DNA from: Gammaproteobacteria bacterium
GTDB lineage: Bacteria > Pseudomonadota > Gammaproteobacteria > Ga0077536
Direction of reading: 5' to 3'
DNA: 64,000 bases
NCBI GenBank assembly: GCA_009692265.1
Contig: SHZM01000004.1
Coordinates: 26,153-90,152, forward strand
The translations under genes were made by a program, and so were the position numbers. The notes under the pieces were generated by a model. It did no database searches. It saw nothing but the letters and a program-made list of their open reading frames with translations, and was not told where the DNA came from. Shown here piece after piece: positions 9,447 to 22,959 of this stretch (position 1 is the stretch's first letter; each line of letters opens with the position of its first letter).

Positions 9447-10609
9447 GTCGGAGCGCCGCGCCGGGTAATCAGCGGCCCCAAAACTCCTGACTCGCGAGTG
9501 TCGCGCACCCTCGGCCATCGCGGCAAGCTTCGCGAACACAATTTGCGGGTCCACCGCCGCCTGGCCCACCCAGGTGCCATAGCCACAGTCGCTACCAGCA
9601 ATGACATTCCCGCGCCCGACCAAGTGGGCGAAGCGGCCAATTCCGGGTGTTCGATAAAATTCGTCTTCGATTCGAGCACGCCTGGAATCAACACCTTGCC
9701 TTCCGGCAGTTTCACCGTCTCGAAGACCCTCCACTCGTGCGCGTGGCGCGGATTTGCCGCCTCGAACGAGATGGCGGTGGCGCGGGCTTGAAATACCACC
9801 TCGATAATATCCTTCAACGGTACGTCGCAGTGGTGGGGGCCTTCGTAATTGCCCCAGCACAGATGCAGGCGCATCTGCTCGGGAGCAATGTTCGCGGTGG
9901 CGAAATTCAGTGCTTCGATATGCAACCGCATGCGTTTTCGGAATGCCTCAAGGCTGAGATCCGCACATTGAATATGGCGACCCATGGCCAAATCGGGGCA
10001 ATCAATCTGGAGCACGAAGCCGGCCTTGGCGATCGTTTCGTATTCGTGGCGCATCGCCTCGGCAATCGCGTAGAGATATTGTTCATCACTCGGATAGTAG
10101 TCGTTCTTGAAAAAAAGTGAGACAACGCCGGGCGACGCTGCGCTCATGAAGCCGCGGGTAGCATTCGCCGCGTCCATCGCGGCGCGGAGATTTTCCGCAT
10201 CGACGATCGGTGCGGTGTGATCGTGCACCTTGATAGGGCCATTGCAGCCCGGTGTTTTACGACGCGCGCGACCTGGGTCGCCAAACATGCGTTTTGCCAT
10301 GTCGGGGAATTCGACCAGGTCTTGGTAGATTAGTGGTTGGCTGGTGCCACCGAAGCCTGTGAGGCGATCCTTGATGTAGGTGGCGTAGCTCGGTTTAGAC
10401 AGCTCACCGTCGTTGACGATATCGATCCCGGCCGCGACTTGCTGGTGCACGACCTCGGCTACCGTCGTGACAATCCGCGCCGCGAGCGCCGAACGATCGA
10501 TCGCGATACCTTCCTCTTTCGCGTACATGATCTTGATCAGATCTTCGGGACGCGGGAGGCTCCCTGTATGGGTGGTCAAAAATCGATCGACACTGCGGAA
10601 CATAGTCAT
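9423..10609 (-). pseudogene. Cobalamin-independent methionine synthase (MetE C-terminal)-like protein, frameshifted near the 3' end
   Basis: MTMFRSVDRFLTTHTGSLPRPEDLIKIM...VLIPGVLESKTNFIEHPE in one frame; the expected IGRFAHLVGRGNVIAGSDCGYGTWVGQAAVDPQIVFAKLAAMAEGA is in another (ORF 9423..9860). Confidence 0.85.
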
Positions 10610-10743
10610 TCTCGGGTTGAGTGCGCGCGGAGTATCCACTCCGCGGTCCGTCCCGATCAATGCTCATGTCACCACCGCGTCGCATTGCTGCACGACCGCG
10701 TGCGCGGTAGTCTCAGCCTCCATTGATAGTTTTTGAGGTACTT

Positions 10744-11580
10744 ATGAAACTCGGACTGTTTGGGATCAATATGAATGCGTGCTGCGACCCGGACACCACG
10801 GTCCAGGTGGCACGCACCGCCGAAGCAGCCGGCTTCGAGTCACTGTGGACAGGCGAGCACGTGGTGCTCCCGGATCCACAGGTCGCGCCCTCACCGTTGC
10901 CACCGCTGTATCCCTTGCTCGATCCAGCGGTCGCCCTCGCTTTCATCGCCGCGCACACGAAGACGGTGAAGCTTGGCACCGGGATCATCATTCTCCCGCA
11001 ACGCAATCCCCTGGTACTCGCCAAGGAGCTTGCGAGTGTCGATGTGCTGTCCAAGGGGCGTTTGATCTTCGGGCTTGGGGTCGGTTACTTAAAGCCTGAA
11101 TTCGAAGCGTTAGGGGTGAGCTTCGAGCACAAGGGCGCGCGCGCTATCGATTACTTGCAAGCCATGCAAGCGATTTGGTCGCAGCCGCAGCCGGGCTATA
11201 CCGGAAAATTCGTGATCTTCAACGGCATTCAGGCACGACCCCAGCCCATTCAGCAAGCGCTGCCAATCGTCATCGGCGGACACACCAAGGCGGCATTTCT
11301 TCGCGCGGTTGAATATGCGCATGGCTGGTATGGTTTTGCGCTGGATGAAGCCGCGACCCAAAAATGTTTGGACGGCCTTGCCGCGGCAGCCCGCGAAGTC
11401 TCACGACCAGCGGCGCTAGGCCCGCTCGAGATCAGCGTCACGCCGGCGGCTGCGCTTGATCGCGATCTCACTCACCGCTACCGCGATCTCGGTGTACACC
11501 GGCTGATTCCGTTTCCTCGTTTGAAGACGGCCGCTGAACTCGTGGCCTTCGTTTCCCGCACCGCGGATGCCTGTCTCTGA
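10744..11580 (+). CDS. LLM-class (F420-type) flavin-dependent oxidoreductase
   Basis: MKLGLFGINMNACCDPDTTVQVARTAEAAGFESLWTGEHVVLPD...TKTVKLGTGIIILPQRNPLVLAKELASVDVLSKGRLIFGLGVGYLKPEF. Confidence 0.9.
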   Translation: MKLGLFGINMNACCDPDTTVQVARTAEAAGFESLWTGEHVVLPDPQVAPSPLPPLYPLLDPAVALAFIAAHTKTVKLGTGIIILPQRNPLVLAKELASVDVLSKGRLIFGLGVGYLKPEFEALGVSFEHKGARAIDYLQAMQAIWSQPQPGYTGKFVIFNGIQARPQPIQQALPIVIGGHTKAAFLRAVEYAHGWYGFALDEAATQKCLDGLAAAAREVSRPAALGPLEISVTPAAALDRDLTHRYRDLGVHRLIPFPRLKTAAELVAFVSRTADACL

Positions 11581-11593
11581 GCAAGAAGTAGTC

Positions 11594-12388
11594 ATGCGAC
11601 AACCATCGATATTCATTCCCCACGGCGGCGGCCCGTGCTTTTTCATGGACCCGCCACCGGACGAGCCGTCGCGTTGGCTCGCGATGGAAGCCTATCTGCG
11701 CGAATTGCCGCTCTGCCTGCCGCAGCGACCGCAGGCCCTGCTGGTAGTCTCCGCGCACTGGGAAATGCCGCGACCCACGGTGCTGGCCGCGGCGCAGCCT
11801 GGCTTATTGTTCGACTACTACGGTTTTCCGCCGCACACCTACCAGCTCACGTATCCGGCGCCAGGTGCGCCTGAGCTTGCGGCACGCGTGCGGCAGCTGC
11901 TCGCCGCGGCCGGTATCGCTAGCGACGAAGACCTTCAGCGTGATTTTGATCACGGCATTTTCGTTCCACTCAAAGTGAGTTTTCCGCAGGCGGACATCCC
12001 GATCCTGCAGTTATCTCTGCGCGAAGATCTGGACCCCGCGAGCCACCTCGCGATCGGTCGCGCGCTAAGCGTGCTGCGGGACGAGAATGTGCTCATTATT
12101 GGTAGCGGGCTGAGCTTCCACAATTTGCGCGCGCTGGGTGGTCCCGCAGGCCCAGCGCGGGAATTTGATCGTTGGTTGACTGAAACTGTGTGCGAGGTAG
12201 CGCCAGCACAACGCGACACGCGGCTTGCACAGTGGGGCGTGGCCCCGGGTGCTCGCGCCTGCCATCCACGCGAACAACACCTACTGCCGTTGATGGTGGC
12301 GGTGGGCGCGGCGGCTGGAGATCCGGGGCAGCACGCGTTCAGCGGTACGATCTGGGGCCAGTCGGTTTCGGCTTATCATTTTGGCTAA
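11594..12388 (+). CDS. Class III extradiol ring-cleavage dioxygenase (DODA-type)
   Basis: MRQPSIFIPHGGGPCFF, LLVVSAHWE, FDYYGFPPHTYQLTYPAPGAPELA, DHGIFVPL. Confidence 0.9.
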   Translation: MRQPSIFIPHGGGPCFFMDPPPDEPSRWLAMEAYLRELPLCLPQRPQALLVVSAHWEMPRPTVLAAAQPGLLFDYYGFPPHTYQLTYPAPGAPELAARVRQLLAAAGIASDEDLQRDFDHGIFVPLKVSFPQADIPILQLSLREDLDPASHLAIGRALSVLRDENVLIIGSGLSFHNLRALGGPAGPAREFDRWLTETVCEVAPAQRDTRLAQWGVAPGARACHPREQHLLPLMVAVGAAAGDPGQHAFSGTIWGQSVSAYHFG

Positions 12389-12422
12389 GGCGAGGGGTCG
12401 GGGTTCTACGGTGCGCGAGGCC

Positions 12423-14636
12423 CTAACGCGCGATCCAATGCTGGACCCAGCTGCGCGGGTTCGCCATAAATTCCGTTAGCAATTCGGGCTGTACATCGCG
12501 TAATAACGGCAGGGCCTTGGCTAACGGCAAGGCATGCGCGGCGATCTCGCGGCGTAACTTCGCGCGATGGTGCCAGGCTGCCGCGGGGAGGCGTGGCGGC
12601 CCTAAGCGCGCGGGCACCCCTTGCCCGAGGAGCAAGGTATCGAAGGCGTGATCGCCAGAGAAGAAATCCGGTGGAATGATCGAATAAAACAACGACGGGC
12701 GGTCGGACAGCGGTGCGCGCTCGCAAAATAACTCAAGGCGATCGCGCGCCCCGCTAATATCGGCGTCCGCGCGCGCGGCGCGCCAGAATTCCGTGTCCAG
12801 GCGGCGGTTGAAGCGGTAATGAATCGCCAGGAACCACCGCAACTGATCCCACAGATCATTCATCTTCTCGGTCAGGCGGGCCTTGCTCGCGACGTCACTA
12901 CGTAACGGAAAGTGATTCGTCAGATATTCGAGTTCATAGATCACCATATGCAGCGCCGTCGACTCCAGGGGCTCGACGAACGCATAGGAATTCCCCAGCG
13001 CGACCACGTTACCCTTGAAAAAATGCGCGTGCCGGCCCGACCGAAATTTGACCTGCCGTGGCTCGCCCATGCGCGGGTGCATGCGGTGCATTTCGTCCAC
13101 TGCGGCGTCATCGCTGATAAACGACGAGGCGTAGACGTAGCCAATGTGATCGCGGTCCTCGAACGCGGTCGACCAACACCAACCGGCATCAAACGCATGC
13201 GCGCGCGTGTAGGGTTTGATCAGGCCGTCGTGCGGCAGGTTCGTCGCGATCGCGCGATCGGTGAACAAACTGGATTGATAACTGACGAACGGCGACTTAA
13301 GCGCGCCTTCCATCAACACCGATCGAAAACCGCTCGCATCGACGTACAAGTCAAACTGCAGCTTGCGGCCATCAGCGGTAACAAGATGATCGACGTTTTC
13401 GCCGTCATCGCGGATCTCCACGCCGCGGATCTCGGCATCCAGATAATGGATGCCGCGACTGATAGCCTCCTCTTTAAGGAAGGCGACGAAGCGCTCATTG
13501 TCGAGGTGGTAAGCGAAGCGAACGCTTTCGAGCAAGCTGTGCGCGCGACCGCCACCGGCGTCGAGCAGCGGCGCGCGATCAGCGTACATCAACTGCGCGG
13601 CGACACTTTGATTATCGAGATGCCCGTCGTAGACCATCGGATCGACCAATGGCGCGTACTGAAACGGATAACTGAACTGGCTATCGGGGGTAGCCCCCCA
13701 TAGAAACTGGATACCAAGCTTAATTGACGGTTGTACACGGCGATGAAAGTCGGCGATGTCGAGCCCGAGTAATCCGGGCGAGTGCAGAAAGCGCACCATT
13801 TCGGGGGTCGTCGCTTCGCCGACACTGATGATCGGAATTTTGCTGGATTCGATCAACGTCACTTCGAGATCGGGGATCCGTCGGCGCAGGGTCAAGGCGG
13901 CGAGATAACCTGCGGTACCGCCGCCCAAGATCCCGACCGTGCGATAGCGATCCGGGTGCGGGGCGGGGCTTGGTGAGTACGCCAATTCCGCAGCAAAGCC
14001 TTCGAGTTCCAAGGCACGCGCCAACGCCGTGCGGGCCACCGCCGCGAAACGCGAGCGAGGCGCGACAACGCCACTGCAAATCGTACAGTGGCCGACGGGC
14101 AACACGCTGATCAGCTCGGTGCCCTCCGCACGGTGTACCGCTGCGGCGGTGAGGGCAGGCGCGGCACTGTCGTTACGCGACAATGCCGCCACCATTTTGA
14201 CAAGACCGTGGGTGATGTCGGTCATCCGCGCGGCTGGGACGGCGGCAATATTGCCGCTGAGGTACGCGCCAAGTTGCCCCATCGCGCGGGTTGGCTCGGC
14301 GTGCGCGGGCAACGCCTGTAGTAGCCGACATTCCACACAGGCGGTCAGGCCCGGCACCGTGACGGTGCCTTGGACGACGTTCGCGCCGTCAATTGTCAAA
14401 AACAACGTGGTGTGTCCGGCTCCGAGCAAGGTCGCTTGCATGTTGAGAAGTTCGCGCCATGTCACGTCTTCGAGTGCAACGATGGTCAGATCGACGGCCT
14501 CACCTGTCGCGGACGCGACAAGTAGCGCTACCTGGGTGAAGCCAGCGGCCTTGAGCGCGTCAGCGAGCGTCGACCCGAACGCGCCTGAGGCGATGATCGC
14601 GATGGTCGTGGAAAAATCGGTGGAACTGTTGTCCAT
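12423..14636 (-). CDS. Flavin-dependent (tryptophan-type) halogenase with N-terminal E1/ThiF-like (TOMM cyclodehydratase-like) domain
   Basis: About residues 225-737 carry halogenase motifs: VGILGGGTAGYLAALTL, IPIISVGEATTPEMVRFL, PSIKLGIQFLWG (catalytic Lys position) and FVEPLESTALHM (catalytic Glu region). The N-terminal ~200 aa has TVTVPGLTACVECRLLQ and VGHCTICSG, two CxxC pairs as in E1-like/cyclodehydratase domains. Confidence 0.8.
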   Translation of the reverse strand: MDNSSTDFSTTIAIIASGAFGSTLADALKAAGFTQVALLVASATGEAVDLTIVALEDVTWRELLNMQATLLGAGHTTLFLTIDGANVVQGTVTVPGLTACVECRLLQALPAHAEPTRAMGQLGAYLSGNIAAVPAARMTDITHGLVKMVAALSRNDSAAPALTAAAVHRAEGTELISVLPVGHCTICSGVVAPRSRFAAVARTALARALELEGFAAELAYSPSPAPHPDRYRTVGILGGGTAGYLAALTLRRRIPDLEVTLIESSKIPIISVGEATTPEMVRFLHSPGLLGLDIADFHRRVQPSIKLGIQFLWGATPDSQFSYPFQYAPLVDPMVYDGHLDNQSVAAQLMYADRAPLLDAGGGRAHSLLESVRFAYHLDNERFVAFLKEEAISRGIHYLDAEIRGVEIRDDGENVDHLVTADGRKLQFDLYVDASGFRSVLMEGALKSPFVSYQSSLFTDRAIATNLPHDGLIKPYTRAHAFDAGWCWSTAFEDRDHIGYVYASSFISDDAAVDEMHRMHPRMGEPRQVKFRSGRHAHFFKGNVVALGNSYAFVEPLESTALHMVIYELEYLTNHFPLRSDVASKARLTEKMNDLWDQLRWFLAIHYRFNRRLDTEFWRAARADADISGARDRLELFCERAPLSDRPSLFYSIIPPDFFSGDHAFDTLLLGQGVPARLGPPRLPAAAWHHRAKLRREIAAHALPLAKALPLLRDVQPELLTEFMANPRSWVQHWIAR

Positions 14637-14897
14637 GTCATTCCGTCCTTGTTCGCGGCGCCGCGGACCCGTGTGGATCCGGCTTCTTCGGCACCCCCAG
14701 CGGCTGGGCCAGGTCCACGGATCACCTGGCTAATCCTGGCCGCCGCTGGACGCGACGATAACACCGCGAGATTTTCATTGTAACTCGGCTTCGCGAGGCT
14801 CAACGCCTGGAACGTCTGAGTGGCGACGGGTGTGACGTAGTGTTTGTATTGAATCGTGAACCGCGGAAGCGTGCGCCACCCGGCAGGCACCCCTGAA

Positions 14898-15500
14898 TCA
14901 GGCCGGGACGTAGCGCAGCCGCTGCGGCGAGAACTCGATGTAGAGGATGAGGCGATCGCGCTCCGAGAAGTTGAACGCGTAGTGCAGATTGGAACCATCG
15001 AACACGATGCCCCGGCCTTCCTCCTCGCGCACGAACTCCCCGTCGACGTTCAAATAGTTGAACTCGTTCTCCATCTCGAGTCCGAGGTGGAAGGACAGGA
15101 ATTGCCCGGCCGCCAGCTCGGGATGGCTATGCGGAGGAAGCCATCCGCCCGGCTTGAACAGCGAGAGCCCGGCGAGATGGATCCCGCGCATCGCCGAAAG
15201 CACGTGGGCGGTCTTCGGGCAGAGCTCTAACCAGAACGGCATTCGCTCGTCTTCAAACACCAGAGCGAACTTGAGCCACTTTTCCTTGACCGGTCCCCAG
15301 CCATCGAACCAGCCGGCCCGCCCCACCGCGGCAACCGTCTTGAGTAGATCCGGGTTCTGCTTTTCCGTCCCCGTGCCGTCGGGATCCACTATCAGGATGT
15401 TCGTGCGATCGAGCGCCGCGCACTCGTCGCGGATGACTTCCCAGTTTGACACCAGGTGCGCCAGCTTGGGATAGGCCGTGTGAGAAACGATGGAGCCCAT
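14898..15500 (-). CDS. Aspartyl/asparaginyl beta-hydroxylase-like (Fe/2OG) protein
   Basis: GGWLPPHSHPELAAGQFLSFHLGLEMEN...GRGIVFDGSNLHYAFNFSERDRLILYIEFS. Confidence 0.75.
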   Translation of the reverse strand: MGSIVSHTAYPKLAHLVSNWEVIRDECAALDRTNILIVDPDGTGTEKQNPDLLKTVAAVGRAGWFDGWGPVKEKWLKFALVFEDERMPFWLELCPKTAHVLSAMRGIHLAGLSLFKPGGWLPPHSHPELAAGQFLSFHLGLEMENEFNYLNVDGEFVREEEGRGIVFDGSNLHYAFNFSERDRLILYIEFSPQRLRYVPA

Positions 15501-15513
15501 GATCAGCCTCGTT

Positions 15514-16301
15514 TTAGGGGGCTACTAATGGCCCGAGCTTCAGATAGTCCTGCACCGTCTGTCCCTTGCACTCTACGTCGAGCACGGGCGCGCCGAGGCC
15601 CTCGGCGAGGTCGCCCTCATCCACCGTGCGGAAGTCGAGGCTGAAGCGGATCCGCCCGCTCGTGACCGGCACCCCGCCGTGCAGATGCGCCCCAGAGAAC
15701 AGCAGCAGCTCACCCCTGGCGAGGGAGAAGCGCTGCGCTTCGCTCGCAGGTGGGCGCACCAACGCATCGGGCGCGTGCGCCGGGAGCCAGCGACCGTCGG
15801 AGCCTAGCTGGGGCGGTTTGGTGTAATCGAGCAGCGCGGAGTCGTTGGCGATTGGGCGCGCGAAGTACTCCGGATAGAACGCGAAGCTCTCAGTCTCGTC
15901 GACGTCGTGCACCGCCAACCACCAGTTCACCTGGCACGCCGGGTTCGCGTACCAGGTGTCGCGATGGACCGCGTAGGCGCCGCGCGGCGCGGCCTCGGGC
16001 GCTAGGAACGCCGCTAGCGCGCGGACACGCACGGAGTCGACGCGCTGCTGCGACAGATCGAAGCCGGTCTCGGCGATTACCGCCGCGATCGCGGCCCACC
16101 AGCCGCTGTCCACCATCGCGTGCTCCCTCAGCCCGGCCAGCGCGGCGTGGACGTCGACCTCGGCGCTGCGCGGATCCGGTCCGAGGATGGTGCCGATCGC
16201 ACCCATTACCCCGTCCACGAACGCCAGCGACGTCGGCGTCGCCGGCCTCCGAATAATCTCTCCGCCGTAGATCCGCGCGCGCAGTGCCGCGGCGCTCACG
16301 A
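15514..16301 (-). CDS. Putative 2OG-Fe(II) oxygenase (PhyH-like)
   Basis: HRDTWYANPACQVNWWLAVHDVDE (HxD), GELLLFSGAHLHGG (distal His), GRIRFSLDFRTV (Arg). Preferred GTG start at 16301 overlaps the upstream TGA. Confidence 0.65.
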
Positions 16302-16470
16302 CAAACCCCCTACGAACCATCCCAGCACGTGCGCGCTTGCACCCGCGACCGGCGTCTTGGTCCGCACACGGTAGAAGGCCAGGAGGATCGCAATGAACAT
16401 ATTCGCCACCAGCACGAACAGGTGAAAGGCCAACTGTACACGCCGAACAAGCCCGAGACCAAGCGGGGTC
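16298..16470 (-). other. Short hydrophobic ORF or C-terminal remnant of a membrane protein coupled to the downstream oxygenase
   Basis: Reverse-strand LVRRVQLAFHLFVLVANMFIAILLAFYRVRTKTPVAGASAHVLGWFVGGLS*; its TGA (16298-16300) overlaps GTG (16299-16301). Confidence 0.35.
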
Positions 16471-16521
16471 GGCTATCAAAAGTGAACACCATCATCGTGT
16501 ATTCGCGCGGCGTGTATCTCG

Positions 16522-18732: not shown

Positions 18733-19920
18733 TTACACTACGTGATCGCGGCTCAGCGTCGCGATCTCTTCATCGCTCAGCCCAAGCGCACGCAGAATTT
18801 CGTCTTTATGCTCGCCCGCGGGTCCGATCGTTCGACGAAGCTGCGCTGGCGTGCGCGAGAGCGTAAACGCCGGAGCGACCAGCGCCAAAGTGTCACCGGA
18901 CGGTGTCGGAACATCCGTCGCCAGGGCGAGGTACTGTACTTGGCGATCCGCGAAGACCTCATTCATTTTGTAGATCGGTCCACACGGTACGCCGGCCGAA
19001 TTGAGCGCGGCGATGAGATCACCGGAAGACCAGGTTACCGTCCGCGCGCTGATCGCGTCGTTCAGCGCGACGCGCTGCGCCGAACGGAGATCGGCGGTGG
19101 CGAAGTCAGGCTGGTGGATGAGTTCCGGTGCCTCCAACGCGGTGCATAGTCGCGCGTAAATTGTATTTCCACTGGCGGCAATATTGACGAAACCATCAGC
19201 GGTTGGATACACACTGGTGGGCATCGAGGTTGGATGATCGTTGCCCGCCTGGCCAGGAATTTCGCCATCGACGAGCCAGCGAGCGGCTTGAAAATCCATG
19301 ACGTTGATCATCGCCGCGAGCAGCGAGGTCGTTACCCATTGGCCGCGCCCCGATTGAGTACGCTCGGCGAGCGCGATCAAAATACCGAGCGCCGCGAATA
19401 AACCAGCACTAGAATCGGCAACCGCGGTGCCGGCGCGCAGCGGTCCTTGTCCCCGGTGCCCGGTCGTCCACATCAATCCCCCCATGCCCTGTGCGATTTG
19501 GTCGAACCCGGCGTGATCACGATACGGGCCGGTCTCCCCAAAGCCCGAAATGCTCGCGTAGATAAGGCGCGGATTCTCGGCAGCCAACGTGTCGTAGTCG
19601 ATCCCAAGCCGTTGCTTAACCGCTGGTCGATAGTTCTCGACCAAGATGTCCGTGGTGTGCACGAGTTGTTTTAGTATCGCGAGCCCGCGCGGGTCTTTCA
19701 GGTTTAAGGTCAGCGAACGTTTATTGCGATGGAGGTTCTGAAAATCGCCACCGCCGCGGTTGCCTAAGCCGTCGTCACCTTCCTTCGGTTGTTCGATCTT
19801 GATGACATCCGCACCCCAATCGGCGAACTGCCGCACGCAGGTGGGTCCTGAGCGCAGGCGAGTGAGATCTATTACCCGCAGATGGGCTAGCGCGCCCCGA
19901 GTCATGGTTCGCGGGGTCAT
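18733..19920 (-). CDS. CaiB/BaiF family CoA transferase
   Basis: LRVIDLTRLRSGPTCVRQFADWGADVIKIEQPKEGDD...NKRSLTLNLKDPRG...ISGFGETGPYRD. Confidence 0.93.
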   Translation of the reverse strand: MTPRTMTRGALAHLRVIDLTRLRSGPTCVRQFADWGADVIKIEQPKEGDDGLGNRGGGDFQNLHRNKRSLTLNLKDPRGLAILKQLVHTTDILVENYRPAVKQRLGIDYDTLAAENPRLIYASISGFGETGPYRDHAGFDQIAQGMGGLMWTTGHRGQGPLRAGTAVADSSAGLFAALGILIALAERTQSGRGQWVTTSLLAAMINVMDFQAARWLVDGEIPGQAGNDHPTSMPTSVYPTADGFVNIAASGNTIYARLCTALEAPELIHQPDFATADLRSAQRVALNDAISARTVTWSSGDLIAALNSAGVPCGPIYKMNEVFADRQVQYLALATDVPTPSGDTLALVAPAFTLSRTPAQLRRTIGPAGEHKDEILRALGLSDEEIATLSRDHVV

Positions 19921-20765
19921 GCTGTGCGGACTGCCCAGCGCCCGGATTCAACCTGCTGAAAGAATTGTTCGACGAGATAATTGAACAGTGCAGGCTCTTC
20001 TAGGTTCAGGACATGTCCACTATTGGGCAGCACGGCAAGCGCTGCAGCCGGCAGGGTGCGTTTCAACATCAGACTGGGTTCGAGGGTTGGTTCGTCTTCG
20101 TCGCCGGCGACGATCAAGGTAGGCGTCGTCGTCGCGCGGAGCAAGTCGGTAAGTTGGTACAGCGACGATCGTCGCCCTTGGTAACCCGCCATGGTATTGG
20201 CCGAGCCGAGATCGGAGTGATCCGAAAAGATTCGAATGAATTCGGCGAACCCGCGCGGATCTTTCGCCTTCAATTGCACCCGGCCTGGCCCATGGCCGTA
20301 GGTCGAAGCGAAGTGCGCAATCCCTTGGGTGCGAATCAACGCCGCGTTCTCGCGGGCGTGGGCTTGAAATTCAAGGTAACCATCAGGGTGCGCGCCATAG
20401 CCACAGCCCGCGACAACCAGGGACAGCGCTCGCGGGCCATGGCGTATGCCGAAATGCAAGGTCGCAAAGGCGCCCATCGAAAGTCCGACGATATGCGCTT
20501 GTGCGATGTCGAGGCCGTCGAGCACGGCAAGGATGTCGTCACGTGCGTGGTCCTGCGAATAGCTGTCGCTCGACTCCGGAACCGCGGAGGGCGGATAACC
20601 CCGTGCATTAAACGTGATGCATCGATAACGCCGCGCGAAATGCCGCACCTGGGGCTCCCAACTGCGAGAGTCGCCCGCGAATTCGTGGACGAAGACGACA
20701 GGCGTGCCGGTGCCAGTCTCTTCGTAATAGAGGTTGACGCCGTCGGCGGTGGTGATTGAGGACAT
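19917..20765 (-). CDS. Alpha/beta hydrolase
   Basis: PVVFVHEFAGDSRSWEPQVRHFARRYRCITFNARGYPPS, HIVGLSMGAFATLHFG (GLSMG nucleophile elbow), GHVLNLEEP. Confidence 0.92.
   Translation of the reverse strand: MSSITTADGVNLYYEETGTGTPVVFVHEFAGDSRSWEPQVRHFARRYRCITFNARGYPPSAVPESSDSYSQDHARDDILAVLDGLDIAQAHIVGLSMGAFATLHFGIRHGPRALSLVVAGCGYGAHPDGYLEFQAHARENAALIRTQGIAHFASTYGHGPGRVQLKAKDPRGFAEFIRIFSDHSDLGSANTMAGYQGRRSSLYQLTDLLRATTTPTLIVAGDEDEPTLEPSLMLKRTLPAAALAVLPNSGHVLNLEEPALFNYLVEQFFQQVESGRWAVRTA
20591..20645 (+). repeat. 55-bp exact direct repeat, copy 1 (inside alpha/beta hydrolase gene)
   Basis: gcggataaccccgtgcattaaacgtgatgcatcgataacgccgcgcgaaatgccg, identical to 22446..22500. Confidence 0.95.
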
Positions 20766-21025: not shown

Positions 21026-22400
21026 GTGCGTCCAGCGAAGGCTGGCGTGTTCAGCAGGAGACAGCCTGCCGGGGTAGAAATCAGGGCCCCGTAGCTAAAA
21101 TGGCGGCGTGTTGGGAGACCGCTACGTTGAAGCCTATCGACAACGTCATCGTGAGGATGGCGGCGAATTATCAGGCCGTAGCGCAAGCGAACGAGAAGTG
21201 GCCTCGAAATGACAGTGACCCGGAGGCTGAGCTCGCAATAAACGGGTGAAGGCAGCAAGTGGGCGACGCACACTGATTGAGGCGGCGGCACTCTCCGGCG
21301 GGTTGATTATCAACGGCATGATGACCAGGACATGCTAAGCAACTGGAGAGACCCGTCTCGTCCCGACGAGAAATAGTCGGAGCAAGGTAGGCCGTATAAC
21401 CGGTGCTCCCGGGAAAGCGGCCGACGATGAGCGGGAGTCGGACGGGCTCGTAGTAGCGAGGAGCCGGGTTAACGTCCGTGGAGCGAAGGGGCCTTGCCTT
21501 GAGTAGAGGTTTCGTCAACACGGGGGGCCGGGGCGAGATGATAAAGGCGCCTATGGAATTGCAAGACCTGAGACGGAAGCTATACGCCAAGGCGAAGGCT
21601 GAAGGGACGTGGCGATGTTGGGGGCTGTACGTGCATGTCTGTATGTTGAACATGCGCGTTATGCGGATGACATTGTGGTGCTGGTCGATGCGCATTCGCG
21701 CCACGACTGGCTGCTGCGGGCGGTGAAGAAACGATTACGAGAAGAGTTAGCCAAGCTGCACGTAGAAATTAATGAAGCGAAGAGCCGCAAGGTCGATCTC
21801 TGCCGAAGCGAGAGCTTTGGTTTTTTGGGCTTCGACTTTCGCCGAGTCCGTAGTCGACGCGGGGTCTGGCGAGCGCAGTACACGCCGATGCTGAAGAAGC
21901 GCACGGCGTTATTGCACCAGCTCAAGGAAGTGTTCCGTCGCCATTGTTCGCAGCCTGTGGGAGGGGTGGTGGCAAGCATCGCCCCGATCTTGCGAGGTTG
22001 GGTGAACTATTTTGCGGTGGGGCATTCGAGTCGGTGTCTTCGTTACGTTAAGGACTGGGTTTCGCCGTAGATACGACACTATTTGATGCGTTCCCGGCAG
22101 GGTCACGGCTTTGGTTGGCGGCGATGGAGTAGGCGTTGGTTGTATGACGCATTGGGACCGTTTAACGAGTACCGACTACGTCGACCCGCGCAGAAAGTTG
22201 TGCCGACCGGATAGGTCGCATAAGCCTTGGCGCGAAACTGACAGGAAAGCGTAGTGCGGGAAAACCGCTCGCTGCGTTTGCGGTGGCGGGGGCTGGAAAC
22301 GAGGCAGGGTCGAGATGCTGTGACACTCGCGTACGAAAGGGCGAGCAACAGAGAACACAAACTTCGACCTACACCGGCGCGCCAGTCCTCGACCCTACTT
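21026..22400 (+). mobile_element. Degenerate group II intron (boundaries approximate)
   Basis: GTGCG-type 5' end candidate at about 21026, structured non-coding leader, remnant RT/maturase ORF, and domain-V-like hairpin ggaaagcgtagtgcgggaaaaccgctcgctgcgttt at about 22240-22285. Confidence 0.75.
21538..22214 (+). pseudogene. Group II intron reverse transcriptase/maturase with internal deletion
   Basis: MIKAPMELQDLRRKLYAKAKAEGTWRCWGLYVHVC (IEP N-terminus) is joined out of frame to YVEHARYADDIVVLVDAH (RT YADD) ... VGGVVASIAPILRGWVNYFAVG ... RGFGWRRWSRRWLYDALGPFNEYRLRR in further frames. Confidence 0.85.
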
Positions 22401-22445
22401 GGAGATTTAACACCGCCGCGCTAATTAAACCTGACACCGTTTTCC

Positions 22446-22500
22446 GCGGATAACCCCGTGCATTAAACGTGATGCATCGATAACGCCGCGCGAAATGCCG
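22446..22500 (+). repeat. 55-bp exact direct repeat, copy 2 (gene fragment encoding ..RHFARRYRCITFNARGYP..)
   Basis: Identical 55 nt to 20591..20645; reverse-strand translation reproduces the hydrolase segment. Confidence 0.95.
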
Positions 22501-22959
22501 AGCGAAACAGCCGCCGCTGACCAGTCCTTCAGGAGCCTTCCATTTCCCCGCACTCGACGCTCGATTCCGTGGGATAGGGCTGGCAAAGGGCAGTGCCGGG
22601 AATAAATAGCACGCGCCAAACGTCATCTTTTCGACGGGCACGAAAGCGCCCAATGAACCCGATAGGCGTTGCCAGCAGGACAGGGGCTGCCGGAAACGGC
22701 GGCACTTCTTGACGTTACAAGAGGAGATATGCCTTGAGCATGATCGAACTGATGGATAAGGCGCTTCGTATAACCGCGAGCTTGTCAGAAATCTTGTGTG
22801 TGAGCCGTTGTTGATTAATCGGCGACACTGAATCGGTCTCCGAATTGTATCGCGAATTGTGCCTTGGCTTGAGCCCAGGCGATAGGTTTCACCGAAACCG
22901 CGGCATCACCTCCTGCGCGAAGCGCTCCAAGCTTTCGCTAAAGATTGCTGGCGTAAATC

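Follow-up and report, generated by a model that had tools for sequence, protein, structure and literature searches.

The window analysed here is a 64,000-nucleotide stretch of contig SHZM01000004.1 from a gammaproteobacterial genome (GCA_009692265.1, genome G000 below). It carries an intact gene in which an E1-like domain is fused to a flavin-dependent halogenase, in a same-strand group with two preceding genes for 2-oxoglutarate-type oxygenases. In window coordinates, the features of the locus are:

12423..14636, minus strand: E1-like/halogenase fusion gene, 737 aa (ATG at 14636, stop at 12423, reading frame intact)
13953..14636, minus strand: E1-like (ThiF/MccB/LynD-type) domain, residues 1-228, without an N-terminal RRE (AF2/Foldseek, profile, alignment)
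14328..14339, minus strand: first Cys pair, C100/C103 (CVEC), invariant in 10/10 aligned proteins
14076..14087, minus strand: second Cys pair, C184/C187 (CTIC), invariant in 10/10 aligned proteins
12426..13952, minus strand: MibH-like flavin-dependent tryptophan halogenase domain, residues 229-737 (PF04820, PDB match, tree)
13719..13721, minus strand: catalytic Lys306 (PSIKLGIQF), invariant in the alignment (also motif table)
13164..13181, minus strand: altered WxWxIP motif, WCWSTA, residues 486-491 (motif table)
12963..12965, minus strand: catalytic-type Glu558 (VEPLEST; alignment and motif table)
14711..14917, minus strand: decayed YcaO C-terminus directly upstream of the fusion gene (pairwise match to the YcaO of contig C95)
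14898..15500, minus strand: aspartyl/asparaginyl beta-hydroxylase-like gene, a possible tailoring partner (PF05118, E 1.1e-20)
15514..16479, minus strand: PhyH-like 2-oxoglutarate oxygenase (PF05721, E 0.0036, below the cut-off)

Residues 234-647 of the window protein were assigned to PF04820 (E 4.4e-107; 359 bits against a cut-off of 21). The FAD-binding GxGxxG motif is present as GGGTAG at residues 238-243, and VGEAT lies at residues 272-276. The best PDB match of the halogenase part was 5uao, at 449 bits with the runner-up at 201; the entry is titled only 'Tryptophane-5-halogenase', and we take it to be the lantibiotic halogenase MibH. Flavin halogenases need FADH2, O2 and a halide, and have a lysine and a glutamate in the active site. 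Both catalytic residues are retained in the window protein, as are the four cysteines, and base composition by codon position was of the coding type in both domains of the 2.2-kb reading frame. The WxWxIP criterion was failed by the window protein alone (WCWSTA), all other fused members having WCWxIP, and the form ISVGEAT is likewise confined to it among fused members.

No significant Pfam or NCBIfam match was obtained for residues 1-228. TIGR03882 gave no match to the window protein at E up to 1, and matched the Nostoc relative L011 and the Polyangia protein L039 only below threshold (22.5 bits against a cut-off of 36.9, E 1e-4). An AF2 model of residues 1-228 reached a pLDDT of 76 and a pTM of 0.75, the remaining four models being worse (47-55). 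When this model was searched with Foldseek, PDB chains of LynD, TruD, MusD, MccB, UBA5 and McbBCD were recovered at probability 1.00, with E-values of 1.6e-8 for LynD, the best, and 4e-6 for MccB. A sequence profile of the relatives' N-termini, in which no structure was used, also recovered LynD (9.6e-8) and TruD (2.9e-6). Residues 1-228 adopt an E1-like fold, as predicted by both the model and the profile. Among the 10 aligned N-terminal regions the four cysteines are invariant although identity to the window protein across the E1 region is just 21-28%, indicating conservation above chance. The two CxxC pairs match the criterion for the zinc site of E1-like/TOMM proteins; zinc binding itself is inferred.

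Alignment showed that the full-length relatives have an additional N-terminal RRE-like domain, whereas the window protein begins at the E1 part. A structural model of the RRE-like and E1 parts of L011 matched LynD over 368 columns (4e-13). LynD and TruD are TOMM cyclodehydratases with the order RRE, E1-like domain, YcaO; because of their extra N-terminal domain, the full-length relatives resemble LynD with a halogenase in place of YcaO. Leader binding in LynD-type proteins resides in the RRE, and RRE-E1 modules bind peptides in the systems studied so far. A search of the window's genome with profile A3 found no second protein of the RRE/E1 type.

A preliminary description, made from sequence alone, had placed a 737-aa reading frame at 12423-14636 without giving a strand, which was found to be minus. 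Its C-terminal halogenase with Rossmann motif, VGEAT, lysine and glutamate, its WCWSTA in place of WxWxIP and its two N-terminal CxxC pairs all held. The E1-like, TOMM leader-binding reading of the N-terminus also held, and a lack of any E1-like fold, which would have refuted it, was not found. Two points were amended: the window copy has no RRE, and the activation of C-termini that had been given as E1 background is not implied by the E1-like fold of the fusion.

A genome scan located full-length relatives in four Nostoc genomes, one Sorangium and one Polyangiaceae genome, and a further full-length fusion is encoded by G196, a genome of the same class as the window's, inferred to be gammaproteobacterial, but of a different family. 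Proteins from three phyla share the fusion over its whole length. It occurs as one gene in several genera, which rules out a frameshift or assembly artefact, the other outcome that would have overturned the preliminary description; the sole frame-broken copy is that of Trichormus (L025). No relative was detected in 35 other genomes of the window's order. A class-wide search returned weak N-terminal matches, of which G196 was genuine; L006, the only one examined among the remaining three, has no halogenase.

A tree built from halogenase domains placed the fused members, including that of the window, in one group (SH-aLRT 95), with a set of stand-alone Dehalococcoidia halogenases as its sister; no RiPP context was detected at the loci of the latter. 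The tree was built by a quick method, its row L025 is a mis-framed extract to be disregarded, and the SrpI and MppI sequences were not included.

Several other arrangements were observed among the relatives. A Polyangia MAG encodes radical-SAM/SPASM-like, E1-like and MibH-like halogenase parts in a single 996-aa reading frame (L039:1387-4377), followed by a second radical-SAM gene (L039:4332-5924); this fusion sits outside the fused group and is possibly an independent case. Two distinct E1-halogenase fusions occupy one Polyangiaceae locus (L015:6692-9466, plus strand, and 10488-13046, minus strand), and the same genome encodes two MCCW-type precursors. In Nostoc, the start of the fusion is overlapped by a second halogenase, a stand-alone one encoded immediately upstream (L010:2986-4488, also L011-L013).

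All full-length relatives are accompanied by a cluster of Nif11, split-LanB and metallo-hydrolase genes, usually with YcaO-TfuA. Hmmscan of the Nostoc loci identified YcaO, TfuA, Lant_dehydr_N and a thiopeptide-type LanB C-terminal protein, together with metallo-beta-lactamase-fold proteins, JmjC/cupin oxygenases and Nif11 leader peptides. Homologues of RiPP genes were present in the fetched flanks of six of the seven fusion loci, compared with 1/73 of the other loci. The seventh (L015) appeared to lack a linked cluster in the flanks first fetched, an impression dispelled by a longer stretch of the contig, on which a RiPP cluster lies within about 20 kb. These counts are not independent events, since flank lengths vary and several Nostoc loci are near-copies.

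The precursors encoded in these clusters consist of a GG-type leader followed by a peptide ending in (S/T)T(I/V)MC(C/P)W. Eight such precursors were found in the seven Nostoc, Trichormus, Sorangium and Polyangiaceae fusion genomes (L010-L015, L025), and others in G196, G000 and G213, a genome of the window's own family. No precursor ending in MC(C/P)W was found in three control genomes, whose halogenases are stand-alone or of the L039 type. In G196 the fusion lies inside the cluster, between the metallo-hydrolase gene and the B12-radical-SAM gene; in G213 these two genes are adjacent and there is no fusion. As G213 encodes the cluster and an MCPW precursor without it, the end motif alone does not require a fused halogenase.

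Two further features of the precursor regions were noted. In the three clusters from the window's class, the precursor gene is immediately followed by one for a conserved 120-150-aa protein of no known family (L094:1067-1498; G000 C95:67324-67698; G213 C65:112662-113030). A VxIRSIxSVNGIKARP-like segment precedes the GG in Nostoc precursors (L099-L101, L103, L104), and similar segments follow it in the Sorangium (L098) and G000 (C95) precursors; this segment may be a recognition element.

The preliminary description had inferred that the fusion recruits a peptide or a carrier-bound substrate to the halogenase. Peptide recruitment is strengthened by the RiPP clusters around the full-length relatives and by the common precursor C-terminus, and is still an inference. 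The carrier alternative found no support near the fusions. The sole NRPS context was that of a stand-alone MibH-like halogenase on a Streptomyces plasmid, which adjoins an A-T (AMP-binding and PP-binding) protein (L008:11914-15296), so relatives of the fused halogenase may also serve carrier-type pathways.

The window gene lies on contig C102, unlinked to the RiPP cluster of its own genome, which is on contig C95 (C95:64574-87578; L092, L093). That cluster looks complete and contains no halogenase; it comprises:

Biosynthesis: a Nif11-like precursor ending in GSTVMCPW, B12-radical SAM, split LanB, metallo-hydrolases, TfuA and YcaO
Export: two NHLM-type ABC exporters and a TolC-like protein

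The precursor was identified by its neighbourhood, a Pfam search of the genome for Nif11 having returned nothing. Of the B12-radical-SAM protein that adjoins the metallo-hydrolase gene in G213 only the last ~70 residues are left (C95:74824-75117), at a position occupied in G196 by the halogenase fusion and a whole radical-SAM gene. The differing gene orders of G196, G213 and C95 indicate that clusters of this type may or may not include the halogenase; that of C95 is without it.

No RiPP cluster genes were found within 30 kb around the window gene, and when small and C/W-ending reading frames were inspected, no plausible precursor gene was seen at 14637-14897 or elsewhere in the window. The YcaO relic upstream of the fusion gene has no Pfam match and was detected by pairwise tests alone: it is 41% identical to the C95 YcaO over 71 aa (E 1.8e-7), scoring 19 SD above shuffles against that protein and 8 SD against the G213 YcaO. 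No intact YcaO gene remains upstream, and the relic thus indicates that a cluster once present at this locus has been lost. Neither the fusion nor the PhyH-like gene was found in the other genomes of the order that were searched, suggesting acquisition from outside. Elsewhere in the window, a short reading frame at 22369-22653 duplicates a stretch (FARRYRCITFNARGYP) of an alpha/beta hydrolase gene (19917-20765), in gene-poor DNA that resembles decayed or rearranged sequence.

The explanation that we favour, with moderate confidence, is leader-guided halogenation of the C-terminal tryptophan of the precursor, extending, if the window copy is active, to its action in trans. The N-terminal RRE and four-Cys E1-like module would grip the Nif11-type leader, and the halogenase, with FADH2, Lys306 and Glu558, would add chlorine or bromine to the tryptophan that terminates the conserved core (S/T)T(I/V)MC(C/P)W; the cysteines beside it may be modified by YcaO-TfuA or split LanB. 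Leader binding, the tryptophan as site and the identity of the halide are inferred, with no assay data. The window copy would be a diverged member, no longer equipped with an RRE or accompanied by a cluster of its own. If still active, it would most likely act in trans on the C95 precursor (...STVMCPW), with the leader held by its own E1-like part or by a different binder; by analogy with F-dependent cyclodehydratases, a partner protein could be used. This action, like any halogenating activity, is also inferred without assay data.

The reading for the family is held with fair confidence. The SrpI precedent speaks for it; MibH, which works on leader-free peptide, and Amm3, whose predicted peptide substrate proved to be a small molecule, speak against it. 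For the window copy, halogenase activity is as likely to be absent as present, because it has no RRE, carries WCWSTA and stands alone, and no partner was found; with its locus unlinked, its target peptide is uncertain as well. A bolder reading, on which the evidence does not tip either way, is that the fusions form a separate class of RiPP halogenase in which a transplanted RRE-E1 module is the enzyme's own leader-binding device, operating in Nif11/split-LanB/metallo-hydrolase clusters (mostly with YcaO-TfuA) on a Cys-flanked C-terminal tryptophan that is halogenated, with the window copy acting RRE-less in trans.

The strongest rival, which we rate well below the favoured explanation, is that the window copy is a decaying leftover from a RiPP cluster since lost and halogenates peptides hardly or not at all, while the family is active elsewhere. 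The YcaO remnant, the missing RRE, the WCWSTA and ISVGEAT motifs, the absence of cluster genes from the 30 kb around it and the lack of a relative in the 35 other genomes of the order speak for it. Against it stand the intact 2.2-kb reading frame, in which the base composition at the codon positions is of the coding type for each domain, the retained catalytic lysine, glutamate and four cysteines, and the same-strand group with two oxygenase genes.

It is also possible that the fused E1-RRE part serves mainly as the leader-binding partner of YcaO-TfuA or LanB and that the halogenase shares the bound peptide. The Nostoc clusters showed no further recognisable E1-like gene, and an E1-like scaffold serving two enzymes has a precedent in TclI of micrococcin (PMC10634744). 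However, TfuA-associated YcaOs reportedly lack a C protein (PMC4603692), and the G000 C95 and G213 clusters contain YcaO-TfuA but no such fusion. That the halogenase acts on free tryptophan, another small molecule or a late peptide-released intermediate, with the E1-like part a mere protein-contact scaffold, is unlikely. In its favour, Amm3, a halogenase that groups with MibH, has as its substrate a small molecule set free from a scaffold peptide (PMC12715798), and the related L008 halogenase has an A-T NRPS protein as its neighbour. Against it, the RRE-E1 modules studied bind peptides, the precursors share a C-terminal tryptophan, and the fused halogenases fall into one clade associated with precursor clusters.

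In the open-access literature searched, no RRE/E1-halogenase fusion was described; this absence is unproven, because most subscription papers lay outside the search. The shared Nif11/split-LanB/metallo-hydrolase cluster and the (S/T)T(I/V)MC(C/P)W precursors also appear to be undescribed, and the latter constitute a marked family whose products are unknown. How peptide halogenases locate their peptide is an open question, which a built-in leader-binding module makes accessible to domain deletion and swap; the fused halogenase is also a possible tool for directed peptide halogenation.

With leader-binding modification enzymes, the closest likeness is to LynD, TruD and MusD, the best structure and profile matches, which share the N-terminal RRE and E1-like domain of the full-length relatives; they differ in having a catalytic C-terminal YcaO instead of a halogenase, and from the window copy in their RRE. 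Ocin-ThiF-like TOMM F proteins are likewise leader-binding RRE/ThiF proteins, and cyclodehydratases truncated by about 100 residues at the N-terminus need an F protein (PMC4603692). The latter offer a model for the RRE-less window copy, although the partner of F is there a cyclodehydratase. TfuA, YcaO and Nif11-like precursors have been reported in cyanobacteria (PMC8120280), and the genes of these Nostoc/Anabaena clusters for thioamidated RiPPs are alike, halogenases being unmentioned in that text.

Few peptide-tryptophan halogenases are known, a 2025 paper listing MibH, SrpI, MppI and ChlH, and Amm3, earlier predicted to be one, acts on a small molecule (PMC12715798). MibH, the Trp-5-chlorinase of the lantibiotic NAI-107, is the closest PDB relative of the halogenase part and has a peptide tryptophan as substrate, but is stand-alone, falls in a different part of the halogenase tree from the fused group, and acts only once the leader has been removed (PMC10858898). 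SrpI and MppI are brominases in which tryptophan halogenation depends on the leader, that of MppE being Nif11-like. SrpI brominates the C-terminal tryptophan of the SrpE core, ...LCCCW, after YcaO has heterocyclised the cysteines (PMC10858898, PMC10286304), and this core resembles the MC(C/P)W ends of the fusion-cluster precursors. Although leader-dependent, SrpI does not require an RRE and has none embedded in it (PMC10858898), and the MppI paper mentions no RRE (PMC11791876), whereas the full-length fusions carry a leader-binding module of their own. We infer that the fusion is a variant of the RiPP tryptophan halogenases MibH, SrpI and MppI in which this module has been built in.
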